Assembly: GCA_030549175.1 (NCBI GenBank)
Contig: JAUKUA010000005.1
Span: forward strand, 2,418,001-2,482,000
Reading direction: 5' to 3'
Origin: Lasiosphaeris hirsuta
Lineage: Eukaryota > Ascomycota > Sordariomycetes > Sordariales > Lasiosphaeriaceae
DNA: 64,000 nucleotides
Shown: piece by piece, positions 48,949 to 58,235 of the stretch
Position numbering within the stretch: position 1 is the stretch's first letter
Layout: each line of letters starts with the position of its first letter
Notes under the pieces: model-generated
What the model saw: only the letters and a program-made list of their open reading frames with translations
Databases searched by the model: none
Told to the model about the DNA's origin: nothing
Translations under genes and position numbers: made by a program

Positions 48949-50961
48949 GGCTGCGGTATCTCGTCTCACTTCGTTCGGGCGGTGTCTTTTGCAGCTCAGC
49001 GGCAGTACATATAACCCCAACCTCGATTCTGAACCGTCCAGGGTATGGTTCGGCATGGGGGAGTTGAGGACGGTGGCGTCCTGATGAGGCTATCGAGTGT
49101 TAATGCTCAATTGGGGGCATAGATAGGGGCAGGAGGAAAGAATCGGGAGGGGAGGCACATCACTTTGGGGTGCCATGCCTAGCGATCGTCGCCATCAAGC
49201 ACAGATGTCCAGTCTTTCTCAGGAGTTACGGATGCACAGAAGTACACACAGATATTTTGCCATAAAACCCCACACCCCAATGCTCCGATGCGCGCAGTCA
49301 AAGGGTTATTTCCATAGGGCGGTACTACTTAATACAGCAAGGTTCAGAAGTGCAGTGTGCTACTTCACCGCGTGTTTTGGACTCGAGCTGATGGCCTGTG
49401 CTGACATAGTCTCAGATTGCTCGGCGGTGTAGTGCTCGACTCGTGGCCGACACTTTTCGAGGGGTCACTAAACCTCAGAAGACCCGCGGTCAGTCAAGAG
49501 CAGCGTATTCCGAGGCCAGTTTTGGTCTCGGAGGGGAAAGGGTCATGGCCGCCAAACGAGGTGGAATTAAAAAAACGACGTCGGTAGCATAACCTAGTCG
49601 GCTGGGCTGCCACCGTTTGATATGGTTCCCAGGACACCCTTGAGTCGTACTACAATGGCTAGTATCCGGAGTCGGAGCTACAAAATAACATGTACAAGTT
49701 CTTCTGCCCGGGGACCAAGACGCCACCCACCGTATCCATACACCGAGACGTGCCCCCGCCCCCAGTGTATTGCGAGGGGGGGCTCCCCGCTTAGCAATTA
49801 CAACCCTTTGGCTTCAAGACGAGATCTCGCCTCTCTTGGCCAGATCTACTCCTCCCCTTTGCTTAGTGGTGCCCGCTCGTCTTCTTTTTGAGCTGACCGT
49901 GTGCTATTGGATGGGCGCGGTGGCCATGGGGAACAAAGGAATCTCAAAGAATGAAACAGCCACTGCCAAGACGCAAAGCAGTGTCTGGCCGCTTTCTGCG
50001 GCTCACCCGCCAAAATACGAATGGGGCAGGTTGACAGACGACTAGCAAGGTGAATGCCGCGATTGGGTCGACATGTAAAAGGGCCAAAAAGAGAGAGAAA
50101 GAAGGTTATCGTGTGCCTCTGATTGGCTGGGTATGCTGCCCATGGATGCGCCGTGGTGGAGCGGAGGGCAAGAAACGGCTCTGGGTAACGGGCGAAAGAA
50201 GATTCGGCGCACTGGAGGGGGAGGAGGAGGGGGTTGGGGGGCTTGGGACGGCAAGAACGGATAGTGGGTTGGGGCGCTCGGCAGGGCGAGGCCCGGCGCC
50301 GACTCCGTTCACTCGCGCATCCCGATATATAGGCACCAATTTGTCCATCCCGTCCATCTGCATTCCCATACATTGACCGCTGCGACCCTGGCGACGCCGG
50401 CCGGCCCCTTGCGATGATGACCTTGTCTTCTGCGTTGGGGCACTTTGTAGCGAGCCCTCGCGCCTTTTCGCGCCTTCAATTGCAGAAAGCGGAAGGGGAA
50501 AAAAAAACATGGCTTGGCTCATATCAGCGGAAACTAGAATGAGAAAGCCTAGAATCCTTTCCGTAACATCTCCGCGCTTACCACTTGCCGCGACCCCCTC
50601 TCAGCAAGTTGTACTTACGTCATGGTAACAGGGGGAATTGGCCACTCGTGTTGAGCCCTGCTGTTTTAGTGTCGGAACGGCATCCGACAGCCGGGTTCGG
50701 ATCCCGATGGCAACTGTCGGCATAGGTGGTTGCAGACGCGCAAAAAATGAGGCCTGTGATGGGGGGGGGTTGGGTTCCTGAGAAGGGGCATGTATCGCGT
50801 GCCCCCTTTTTTACACTCGACCAATTTGGTCTTGGCGTAAACAAACAAATGGCCCGAGAATACTCCGTACAGAGAAGACAGCAATATCAATATCAGCCAC
50901 GACCTCAGGTACTTGATTCTTAAAGGTTAGCTAGTAGTCGTAGAGGTATGTATGTACACAC
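48949..50961. other. Intergenic between convergent genes
   Basis: 3' flanks of the Ykt6 gene (+) and the molybdenum cofactor gene (-), about 2 kb. ORFs of up to 175 codons overlap in several frames without family features. Nothing else identified. Confidence 0.5.
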
Positions 50962-53344
50962 CTAATCCGCCCTCTCCCCTTCCGCCCACCGCCCACTCTT
51001 CCCTCCCTCCTTCAGCACCACCCTCAACCCCTCGATCACCATACCCTTGTCCACCGCCTTGCACATATCATACACGGTCAACGCCGCGGCGCCCGCCGCC
51101 ATCATGGCCTCCATCTCCACCCCCGTCTTCCCCTCACACGACACCGTCGCGTTAATCTCAATCCGATCCCCGTCCCCTGCATCAGGCCCCCCCGAAACTA
51201 GCTCAAACTCCACCCCCACATATGTGATCGCGATGGGGTGACACAGCGGAATGATGTCCGCGGTTCGCTTGGCCGCCATGATGCCCGCCACGCGCGCCAC
51301 GCCAAGCACGTCGCCCTTGGCCATCTGGTTCTCGCGCACAAGCGCCAGGGCGGTGCGTGATGAGAAGCGGACGGCGCTGCGCGCTGCAGCGGTGCGCGTG
51401 GTGGGGGCCTTGGAGGAGATGGACACCATGTGGGCGGAACCCGAAGGGGAGAGGTGGGTTAGCTTTGGCTTTGGCTTTGGCTCTGGGGTTTCAGTTTGTG
51501 GCGGCAGTGCCGGGCTGACGTTATTGGACGAGGTAAGTTTGGTGGTTGTGGTTGAGAAAAGACGGAGATGGGATGGGGAGGGCGGTGATGAGGCTGGAGA
51601 CATCACGCCCGCCATGAAGCTAGGGAGGCCGGTCGAGAGGAGGGGCGATGCTCCGGGCTGGTGCCATTGGACTGGTGATGGTCGTGAGAGAGACTGGCGA
51701 GAACGAGACTGGGACCGAGGGGCAAAGGTTGGCTCTACAGATTTGATTACTTAGTATTGGCTCCAAGATATATATATTTCGTGACATCATGCAGATAGAA
51801 TAGATCTGATCCAAAACATGACAATCGCGGTATTTATTGTGTGCCCTCCCGATATGTACCAGTATCATGCATGAACCAACTCCGTCTCGCATGCGAAAGA
51901 AACAGGAAGAGCCATTTCACCCACCAATAAGTATCATCGGTCGATTCTTCATGTGCTCGAGCTCGCCGATGCCAGCATGCTTCTCCTTCTTATTTTTGAC
52001 AGCCATGCGGATGACATTGAGCAGCTCATCTGAATTCGGAGCTAGTAGAGGCGATGGGCCCGACAGCGATAACTTGTCGCTGCTCATCTGGGCCATCGCC
52101 GCTTGCTTCATCGACTCGAGGGCTTCCTCGTTGATGGGCTCCCCTTGGTTCACCTTGCGAATAATGTCTCTCAGCGAGACCTCCGCGTTACCAAACAGAC
52201 ACACCTTCAGGTTGCCGTCGCCAGTGATGCGGAGCCTATTGCATGTCCCGCAGAAATTGTGCGTCATGCTGGTAATGAAGCCGATGCGACCAGCAAAACC
52301 GGGCACCTTGAACGTCTTGCTCGTGTCGTTCTTATGGCCGGCCTCCCGCCGGAGGTCGGGATACTTTGCGCGAATCACCTCGAGCATCTCCTCGTAGCTA
52401 AACATCTTGGCCTTGCTCCACTTGTTGCCGTCGAAGGGCATATACTCGATGAAGCGAATCTCGATGTCCTCGTCGCGCGTCATCTCGACAAATGGCAGGA
52501 TTTCGCGGTCGTTGAGTCCGCGCATGACGACGCAGTTGATCTTGAACTTGATGCCCGCCCCCGCACGGTTCATCTCAAGGATGCGGTCGATGCTCTTGCG
52601 CACGGCGTTGAAGCCAGGACGGCGCGTCATGATCTGAAACTGCCACGGGTCGAGGGTGTCAAGCGACAGGTTGACGCCCGTCAGGCCGGCTTCGACCATG
52701 GCGTCGAGCTTGCGGTGAAGGGTGAGCCCGTTGGTGGTGAGGCATATCTCACGCAAGCCATGCTGGCGAAGTGCCCCGATTTGCTGCATCAGGGGCAGGA
52801 TATCGCGACGGACCGTTGGCTCGCCGCCGGTCAGGCGAATCTTGGTCACACCTTGCGAAACAAAAAGAGACGATATCAAAACAATCTCGGGCGTAGTTAG
52901 GAGCTCGCGCTGGGGCGAGAGAGGTACGCCCTCCTCGGGCATGCAGTACGTGCAGCGCAAGTTGCATCGCTCCGTCACCGAGATACGCAGGTAATCGTGC
53001 TGGCGGTCAAAGGTGTCGGTGAGGAAGTCCGAAAAGGGCTTGGCTTCCTTGATACGGTCCTTGCGGGAGAGAACCGGCGGGTGTGGAGAAGTCACCGGGC
53101 TCGCCCCGGGAGCGTAGGCCGGCACCCGAGGGTCCCGAAGGGCTGATGTGGCAGGGGGTGAATATAGCTGGCCAGGCACTTGGGCTGTTGTCTGCACCCG
53201 GGAATGGGTGGTTGCTGCCGCCGTGGCTACATGCCTCGCCTGGGCCGACGAAGAGCGGTTTTCTCGTGGCACCGGTGGCACCGGTAGCATCTGCAGTGTC
53301 CCGACCCGGAGGCGCCGAACAGCGCAACGCGTAGCTGCTGTCAT
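50962..53344 (-). CDS. cnxABC: Molybdenum cofactor step-1 protein, MoaA-MoaC fusion (MOCS1/cnxABC type)
   Basis: Converts GTP to cyclic pyranopterin monophosphate, needed for nitrate reductase, sulfite oxidase and xanthine dehydrogenase. Fused reading: exons 53344-51925 and 51734-50962 (minus), 730 residues, joined by a 190-base intron beginning GTGGGT and ending TGTAG. The MoaA half is a radical-SAM enzyme: N-terminal cluster ERCNLRCTYC (Cys127, 131, 134), RLTGGEP, and C-terminal cluster FCGTCNRLR...C (Cys365, 368, 382). The MoaC half: THLSPSGSAHMVSIS, KGDVLGVARVAGIMAAKRT, IPLCHPI, GVEMEAMMAAG and TVYDMCKAVDKG. Without splicing, MoaA ends at 51917 as ...MILIGG-stop (475 residues), the double-glycine end required in human MOCS1A. 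Splicing removes both Gly codons and the stop. The N-terminus is Arg/Ser-rich, possibly mitochondrial. Both products are probably made; this is inference. Confidence 0.93.
51735..51924 (-). promoter_or_regulatory. Optional intron deciding MoaA versus MoaA-MoaC product
   Basis: Donor at 51924 (ATT G|GTGGGT) and acceptor at 51735 (AAATCTGTAG|AG). Retained, it gives Gly-Gly-stop at 51922-51917. Spliced, Gly474 becomes Glu474 and the frame runs through a basic Ser/Arg/Gln-rich linker of about 60 residues into MoaC. The phase and total length (2193 bases, a multiple of three) fit exactly. Confidence 0.7.
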
Positions 53345-53835
53345 GGTTTTCCAAGTTCAGCCGTTCTGTAGGATCATTGGTGATAGTGCAACATGGCTCA
53401 TGGCGGGGAACTTATGCCTGCGATTGTGCCCGCGGAGATGTTGGCATTGTTACACCACCGAGGATGGCTTGGAAGGTTGGAAGAGCAAACACCCGAAAAG
53501 AACCCCGAGGCAAATTGAAGAGCAGATGTAGATATATATATGTGTGGATATATGTGTGGGTGAGAGTCCCTGAGATTGCGGTCCTCTGTTGTGAGAACAT
53601 AGTCTGGGATGAGTAATTGGACGTGTCAACAGTCATCGTCCTTGCAGGGTTTTGTCATGACGGATGAATGACAGTGCTAGGTAGACGTAGTAGTTTAGCG
53701 CAAATTGGAGGAGGTGGGGTCCGCTCCGGCTACTTACCGGACAACGGCGAACTCAGGCCCTGAGGTGGCCTAGAGCCAATGAGGGGTCCGCCGCCTTGGC
53801 GTTCGTTGACTTCACGGCGTTCACGCGCGGGGGAG
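53345..53835. other. Upstream region of the molybdenum cofactor gene
   Basis: Probably promoter. A TATATATATGTGTGGATATATG-like alternating tract lies at about 53531-53555. No gene supported. Confidence 0.5.
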
Positions 53836-53970
53836 TACGGAAGGGCGGCCAGCTCACTATTCCAAATCAATTTTCGACCCCACATTTTCCACTACCCACA
53901 CGCCCACAACCTACAACCAATACATGGCAAGCCACAGCCATCGGTCAGCCCTGATCAGAGGCCGCAGCAG
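53836..53970 (+). repeat. Dispersed repeat, copy 2 (pair with 35892)
   Basis: Starts TACGGAAGGGCGGCCAGCTC and continues through the shared CCAAATCAATTTTCGACCCC. The second shared block, CAGCCATCGGTCAGCCCTGA, starts at about 53934. The differences to copy 1 are mostly C/T and A/G transitions. It adjoins the AT-rich block, so may be the edge of one large element. Confidence 0.7.
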
Positions 53971-54179
53971 TAACAGCCGCCTACGCATTCCCTCAGCTTT
54001 CTCATTTATTGACCGTGCCTGTCTATTTGCCTCTCACTGTCGCCGATTCACCTTTCCGAATGAAAACCCAGAGGAACTTGCTGCAGCGCTAGCTGCTATG
54101 CCCTGGAAGCCGGCAACGAAGTATCGGCTCTTGTCGTCACTGTATGGATTCTAAAGTGGCTCTGTGAGACAGACATCAC

Positions 54180-56056: not shown

Positions 56057-58235
56057 TTAGCGCATATCCTCAACACGTCTTGGCTTTTCGTCGTCCATCA
56101 TCATGTCGTAGCCCTGCTCGTTGGGCGGGTTGTGGATTCCGGGGATGCCCGTCTGGCCAGGTAGCTGCGGCACCGGAGGAGCGGTCGACGTCTCCTCGCG
56201 CCTTTGTGCACGCTTGATCCGGCCAGTCTGCTGGTCAACCCAGGAGTTCACCGTTCGGAATCGAGGCGGCATATCTTCGCTGGTCTGGGTATAGATAGTG
56301 TCTCTTTTACTTGGGTCCTGGGACATCCAGGAGAAACGAGAACTGTAGCGGCTAGATGCCGTGCGAGGATACGCCGGCGCGGTCGGTTGGGGTGCGACGA
56401 TGATGTCGCCATCGCCAAAGCCTGACGAGAGCGACGATATCTCGCTTGCCCGGTTCACTTGTCGGCGTTGCGGGTCATGGGCTCGAGATGGTGTTCGAGC
56501 AAATTCGGATTGGTTATAGTAAACCGGCCCCATCTTGGAGCGCAGCGTACTAGTCGGATCCGTGCTGATAGTGCCAAACTGGGCTGCACTTGTGGAGCTG
56601 AATGAGTCCTGTGGGGAATGAGATATAAGACTTGGCGGGATTGGAGGCGCGTTGTCTGTTATAACGCTCACGGCAATAGGGTGCGAACTGAGAGGCCTCG
56701 GACTCGAGGGTGGAAGAGTCGGAGCCTCTGCGGCGACGAGTGACCGAATCCGTGATAGCTGCGGTTTCTCCTGCGACGCTCCCTGCGGCGGTTGCTGTTC
56801 TTGCTGGTCTGGATGATAGGGGTAGGCCTTCTCGTGGCCGTAGAAACCACCCAGGGGCAAAGATTTTGGACCTTTGGCTTTCTCATGGTAGCTTGGTGGC
56901 GGGGTTTTTCCACTTTTGCTGCTTTCAGCACTTTTTCCTGCGGGTGCGTCGTCCAAGTTTTCCCACCCTGTTTGCTTGAAGAAAGGGATGCTGGCAACCA
57001 GGCGCTGTGGAAGCATATTTCGCGGAATCATCTTCCGGAAAGCATCGGTCCTCGTGCCACCATTCTTCTTTGACTTGTTCATTGCCCGCCATACATACCA
57101 GCCTACACAGCCAATCATAGCAAAGACCGCTGGACAGGTTGTTAGCCCCAAGACAGCAAACCGTGGGCAGGGGGTCCTTACCTATCGAGCCGACGGATAT
57201 CATTACACGCTCGGCCATTGGGTCCATCCCTTGGGGTGCTTCCACCGTGCTATTTTGCCCAGCGCTCGGATTGACATCCTGGCCGGGGCTGGGGCTAGGA
57301 GCGGGAACGAGAGTAGGAAAAGAGGTGGGGCTCTCCGTGGTGTTTGATAGTGCCAATGGAGCCGGCTCTCGGCCCGGTTCAGCCACTGGGGCCGGGGTAG
57401 GTAATAATGAATCAGATAATGGGACGCTAGGAACAGCGTTGAGGGCCTCGGCGCTTGAAGAAGAGCCTGGTGTAAGCGCCGTAGTCTCCGTTGTCGTCAT
57501 AGGAATAAATGCGGTGACAGTAGCCTTTGAAACGAGTTAGTAACGGGTATCGTGGACTTGTGACCGAGTTGTTCTTACTCCATCTGACGGGGTGATCGTC
57601 ATAGTCGATACCATAACAATCGTTGTTGGCTCGGGTGGAGTTGGAGGAGGTGCGGCTGTCTCGACTGGCGCCACCACAGTGTCTGGGGATGTTGCGGGTG
57701 GCAGAGGAGGTGATGGCGGCAGTGGTGTAGCTTCCGGAGGAGGAGGCGGAGGAGCTTCGGTAGGAGGAGCAGGAGCGGGAGCGGGAGCGGGGGGTGGGGC
57801 GACCGTGCTTGGTTTGTCGTCGTTCTGTTTCCCTCCTCCTCCGCCTCCACCTCCCCTCGACTTGCCGCCGCCGTTGCCGCCCTTATCGTCGTCATCATCA
57901 TCATCATCGTCGTCGTCGTCGTCGTCGTCATCACCGCCCTTGCCCTTCCTCCTCTTTCCACTCTTTGCTTTTCCACTTCCTGGGTCTTTATCATCATCGC
58001 CATCGTCATCGCCACCACCTCCCCCTCCTCCTCCGCCGCCACCTCCTCTCCCGCCGCCCTTGCCTCTGAACTTGCCGCGGCCTGAGCTTTCGTCGCCTTC
58101 ATCGTCGTCACCTTTCTGCCTGACGCGAAGATCACCAAGATGGTTTCGGCGCAATATTTGGAGCTCTCCATCCATCCATCTCCGCACTTCTCTCCTTTTC
58201 TGACTTAGTGGCGCCATTCCATTCCCCCCCGGCAT
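56057..58235 (-). CDS. Single-pass membrane protein with poly-Asp and poly-Gly tracts
   Basis: Not recognised as a named family. Exons 58235-57579, 57524-57182 and 57129-56057 (minus); introns GTAAGA to CAAAG and GTAAGG to TCCAG; 690 residues. The N-terminal ~100 residues are charged and contain Gly runs and 16 consecutive Asp (codons 57885-57932). Then comes a Pro/Ala/Thr/Ser-rich stalk with TTTETT- and PPPxP-type repeats and an NTT N-glycosylation site. One membrane helix at about 330-350 (VMISVGSIAVFAMIGCVGWYVW) is created by the last splice, followed by a basic stop-transfer (RAMNKSKK) and a ~330-residue cytosolic tail with QPT and SSRYSSRFSW segments. No signal peptide is visible after the first ATG (a second ATG lies at 58217), so topology is uncertain. 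Layout resembles Mid2/Wsc-like wall sensors only loosely. Confidence 0.75.

Follow-up and report, generated by a model that had tools for sequence, protein, structure and literature searches.

A MoaA-MoaC gene of Lasiosphaeris hirsuta with a Gly-Gly-stop at the donor of its single intron: a candidate splice-or-stop arrangement like that of Neurospora crassa nit-7

Introduction

How can one fungal gene provide both MoaA and MoaC, if the MoaA frame closes on a stop codon and splicing across that stop joins the two halves into a single protein? The question is raised by a gene on the minus strand of a 64-kb stretch of DNA from Lasiosphaeris hirsuta, which is called the window here. The Gly-Gly tail of MoaA reaches into the active site, and human MOCS1A is inactivated by loss of its Gly-Gly. 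The original prediction, made from the letters of the window, was that this fungus obtains both enzymes from one gene by intron retention. A mechanism of this kind has already been published for nit-7 of Neurospora crassa (PMC7232280); what is new here is this species and, at the protein level, the listed relatives.

Results

Structure of the gene and of the splice junction

As shown in Table 1, the gene has two exons separated by one intron. The MoaA frame (53344-51917, minus strand) encodes 475 amino acids and has the C-terminus KNRPMILIGG followed by the stop codon, that is, Ile-Leu-Ile-Gly-Gly-stop, so the predicted Gly-Gly-stop is present. The DNA at this end reads ATT G/GT GGG TGA, where the slash marks the border between exon and intron. 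The original prediction had placed the donor exactly before the two Gly codons. A GTGGGT donor is indeed found there, but the position given was slightly off, as the donor is made of the Gly codons themselves: its first G, at 51924, is the middle base of the first Gly codon, and the exon retains the initial G of that codon alone. Exon 1 is 1420 nt long (3 x 473 + 1), hence the phase-1 start of the intron. Within the first 45 residues of the exon 1 leader, seven are Arg or Lys and one is Asp or Glu.

Table 1. Features of the MoaA-MoaC gene and its upstream region (positions in the window)
Feature	Position	Strand	Description
Exon 1	51925..53344	(-)	Basic leader, MoaA radical-SAM and Mob_synth_C, to ...RPMILI and base 1 of the following codon
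Intron 1	51735..51924	(-)	190 nt, GTGGGT...TGTAG, phase 1
Gly-Gly-stop (GGT GGG TGA)	51917..51925	(-)	Overlaps the donor; 8 of its 9 bases are intronic
Exon 2	50962..51734	(-)	Linker, then MoaC domain; contains an ATG in frame at 51615
CTCCGCGG	53430..53437	(-)	NirA/NIT4-like site, 93 bases upstream of the MoaA ATG; weak evidence

The intron acceptor AAATCTGTAG ends at 51735, and a TACTAAG branch-like element is located about 20 nt upstream of the intron 3' end. Removal of 51924-51735 brings the MoaA frame into frame with MoaC, as had been predicted for an acceptor 190 bases on. The spliced coding sequence is 2193 nt long, a multiple of three as claimed, and encodes 730 amino acids plus the stop without an internal stop; the codon that spans the junction becomes GAG (Glu). 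Traits of the nit-7/MOCS1 type are therefore read directly from this gene: MoaA is followed by MoaC, the unspliced form would end at Gly-Gly-stop, and splicing, judged by the sequence and by the deposited model P0002, deletes the Gly-Gly-stop and fuses the two halves in frame.

P0002 is a protein of Lasiosphaeris hirsuta (Sordariales) whose record is partial. It is 100% identical over the aligned stretch, which covers 80% of the MoaA query, and its junction reads ILI/EPTFAPRS (the slash marks the junction), exactly as proposed. P0002 may be an automatic gene model.

Domains and predicted structures

The MoaA half matched NCBIfam TIGR02666 with 343.5 bits (cut-off 284.05) and the MoaC half matched TIGR00581 with 181.8 bits (cut-off 141.5). 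Pfam concurs, with Radical_SAM and Mob_synth_C in the first frame and a complete MoaC domain (176.1 bits) in the second frame, which was read from 51735 to 50962. In addition to passing the curated cut-off for MoaA (GTP 3',8-cyclase), the first half contains two cysteine groups (C127/C131/C134 and C365/C368/C382), which we take to be the groups with roles in MoaA.

Both forms were modelled with AlphaFold, using proteins from the best 120 matches of the first protein search described below. The A form, predicted from the window protein and 38 of the 68 proteins ending in GG, had a mean pLDDT of 65 and a low-confidence tail, the last block having a mean pLDDT of 29. The fused form, predicted from P0002 and 40 other fused proteins, reached a mean pLDDT of 63.7, its linker having low confidence.

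Protein ends and the junction residue in relatives

Relatives were taken from two protein searches, as the best 120 of 7990 matches to the window MoaA and the best 120 of 7987 matches to P0094, the protein most divergent over the common core among the first 120, which was chosen to reach further relatives. Together they comprise 190 distinct proteins, all close relatives; those with names are, as far as we recognise them, from Sordariomycetes. Among these 190 listed proteins, which are not mutually independent and include many automatic gene models, 103 end exactly in RPMILIGG, 84 have the fused form and three (P0004, P0060 and P0164) belong to neither class.

ILI is followed by Asp (59), Gly (16), Ala (7) or Glu (2) in all 84 listed fused proteins. 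For comparison, 33% of all residues of the same proteins are D, E, A, G or V. The codons for D, G, A and E all begin with G, and the residue found therefore fits a phase-1 junction after one G. Five of the 84 (P0063, P0065, P0083, P0156 and P0174) keep Gly-Gly after ILI; these may be annotation errors, or their donor may lie a few bases downstream. Both kinds of protein have been deposited for two species. Ilyonectria robusta has an A-only protein ending in GG and a fused one in which D follows ILI (P0117 and P0180), and Colletotrichum tofieldiae has an A-only protein and a fused one (P0167 and P0174), the latter being among those that keep GG.

To judge from these protein ends, the Gly-Gly-stop of the relatives probably lies inside their intron as well. 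The original prediction had named orthologues in which the Gly-Gly-stop is not conserved as evidence against it; at the protein level none was found among the listed relatives, which, but for the three of neither class, either end in RPMILIGG or, in the fused class, continue with a codon starting with G. The fit of ends and phase in 84 of 84 listed fused proteins suggests that the Neurospora arrangement is no peculiarity of one model species.

Junction geometry and alternative joins

The bare geometry of this junction is a GT in the last codons with, 45-300 nt on, a TAG or CAG from which 200 or more codons stay open. Of the 200 stop-to-stop frames in the window that are at least 100 codons long, 16 have it, the MoaA frame included. 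Geometry alone was rejected as evidence on this count; some of the remaining frames with such geometry may hold real introns. What sets the junction beyond chance is that the Gly-Gly end is conserved, that the phase is conserved and that the deposited P0002 has the identical junction.

Besides 51924/51735, seven further GT-AG pairs give a join without an internal stop. None of them is used by P0002. Two, with the donor at 51920 and introns of 301 and 406 nt, would leave Gly-Gly in the fusion.

Elsewhere in the window, an open frame at 57537-58235 (minus strand) has long Gly, Asp and Pro tracts, with open frames overlapping on both strands; its neighbour is a frame at 56057-57151 on the same strand.

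Copy number and pathway genes

MoaC was detected at one place in the 44.4-Mb genome and so was Mob_synth_C (MoaA), in searches that score the best candidates only and that a very divergent second copy could escape. The N. crassa protein, searched against the genome, matched only the MoaA and MoaC stretches of the window. This gene appears to be the sole detected source of the first step of the pathway. MoaE was found at one place and Oxidored_molyb, a domain of molybdenum enzymes, at three, which makes it probable that the pathway is used.

Promoter and RNA elements

The octamer CTCCGCGG upstream of the MoaA ATG matches CTCCGHGG, which we take to be the consensus of the nitrate regulators NirA and NIT4. 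Ten such sites occur in the window, one of them within 1200 nt upstream of the ATG (0.19 expected). HGATAR occurs twice in the same 1200 nt against 2.8 expected, and GATA sites are thus not enriched. The predicted fold of the intron region (51715-51944) was no better than that of shuffled sequences (z -0.78), and Rfam gave 0 matches at the gathering score in 50700-54000; no regulatory RNA element was therefore found there.

Discussion

Relation to nit-7 and the proposed mechanism

The L. hirsuta gene is the orthologue of N. crassa nit-7. Its A stretch shares 76% identity, and its B stretch 60%, with the N. crassa protein P0035. In nit-7, which has two exons and one intron, unspliced RNA gives NIT-7A and spliced RNA, from which 1460-1696 is deleted, gives NIT-7AB (PMC7232280). 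NIT-7A takes its coding sequence from exon 1 plus a short piece of intron 1, so that its functionally relevant double glycine is intron-encoded, whereas NIT-7AB has an inactive A domain and serves as the source of NIT-7B, which is freed from the fusion in mitochondria (PMC7232280). Both NIT-7 proteins are needed, and nitrate raises the level of unspliced nit-7 RNA (PMC7232280).

For L. hirsuta we favour the same course of events, with a probability of about 0.92: one transcript with one intron that is either retained or removed. If the intron is kept, translation would end at the intron-encoded Gly-Gly-stop and yield active MoaA (GTP 3',8-cyclase). If it is removed, Gly-Gly and the stop would be lost, and the A part, then inactive, would carry MoaC into mitochondria, where proteolysis would free MoaC from the fusion. 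The structure of the gene, the detection of each domain at a single place, and the conserved Gly-Gly end and phase are observed. By analogy with N. crassa, both RNAs are presumably made in L. hirsuta, the fused A part is presumably inactive and nitrate may shift the balance. The original prediction of two enzymes from one gene is in this way supported by the ends of the relatives, the phase of the junction and nit-7, with intron retention as its presumed step.

The intron might instead always be removed, the fusion being one bifunctional enzyme and the Gly-Gly-stop a leftover. The fused form is found in 50 of the best 120 relatives, that of L. hirsuta among them, as this reading would have it, but we consider it very unlikely. 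In the genome searches, which score the best candidates only, no second MoaA turned up, and 103 of the 190 listed relatives end at Gly-Gly, whereas an unused leftover should decay. Moreover, N. crassa with NIT-7AB and NIT-7B in the absence of NIT-7A does not show wild-type-like growth (PMC7232280).

Even less likely, in our judgement, is an intron that is never removed, with MoaC starting separately at the ATG at 51615, either through re-initiation or with a promoter of its own. This ATG is in frame and precedes a complete MoaC domain. However, the junction is in frame and its phase is conserved, and three observations in N. crassa also run against this reading: NIT-7B alone is not mitochondrial, wild-type-like growth is not regained with NIT-7B and NIT-7A together, and a strain incapable of the main splice, with the donor mutation 1461T>C, shows no significant growth on nitrate (PMC7232280). 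That the stop reflects an assembly error or gene decay has almost no likelihood at all, since P0001 (92% identical) and 102 other listed proteins, independent relatives among them, stop at the same Gly-Gly, and the MoaA and MoaC domains are both intact.

If retention and removal of the intron divide the two products as the Neurospora rule has it, active MoaA would be absent from the annotation wherever the fused model is the sole record, as is listed for Lasiosphaeris hirsuta.

A possible origin of the Gly-Gly-stop

A search for the KNRPMILIGG-stop DNA pattern gave no match in viral contigs, and a shorter end pattern, RPMILIGG-stop, searched in genome contigs, gave 39 records titled bacterial and no fungal match. 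The 39 loci are mostly titled Rhodothermales or Bacteroidetes; all of them have this end because they were selected by it. Their MoaA is 43-53% identical to the fungal one at 38 of the 39 loci and 33% identical at the remaining one. MoaC was found at 26 loci, in every case on the same strand and within 700 nt downstream of MoaA, and was not found at the other 13 in the stretch searched, some of these stretches ending close to the match.

A bacterial MoaA ending in RPMILIGG is possibly the source or the sister of the fungal gene. We put forward, tentatively and as a rather unlikely history, that the Gly-Gly-stop in the intron arose early and not late, having been the stop codon between moaA and moaC in an ancestral operon. 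The intron would have formed around this stop and the intercistronic gap, with its donor recruited from the Gly codons, and the choice between splicing and stopping would have been kept across Sordariomycetes. The adjacency of the bacterial genes and the shared end fit such an origin without proving it.

Comparison with known systems

N. crassa belongs to the same order of fungi as L. hirsuta, and the one intron of the L. hirsuta gene matches that of nit-7 in place and phase. In nit-7, exon 1 is 1-1459 (1459 = 3 x 486 + 1), the NIT-7A construct is 1-1467 and the intron is 1460-1696 (Table 1 of PMC7232280), so the last 8 nt up to and including the stop codon belong to the intron, which is in phase 1, in nit-7 as in L. 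hirsuta. The intron is shorter in L. hirsuta, 190 nt against 237 nt in N. crassa. A further, non-essential N. crassa variant lacks 1469-1696, its donor lying 9 nt downstream and one base past the stop (PMC7232280); unlike N. crassa, L. hirsuta has no GT at the matching position, 51915.

The bacterial moaA and moaC are two separate genes without an intron, in contrast to the L. hirsuta gene. Aspergillus nidulans cnxABC has been named as a nit-7 homologue and discussed as bicistronic (PMC7232280). Human MOCS1 follows the same principle: the choice of splice sites at one locus gives either MOCS1A or MOCS1AB, which is cleaved to MOCS1B (PMC9607355). Unlike the L. hirsuta gene with its two exons, human MOCS1 has ten; the choice is made in exon 9, exon 1 offers another, and an internal targeting signal precedes MOCS1B (PMC9607355). 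The N. crassa fusion, by contrast, stays in the cytosol when its N-terminal signal is missing (PMC7232280).
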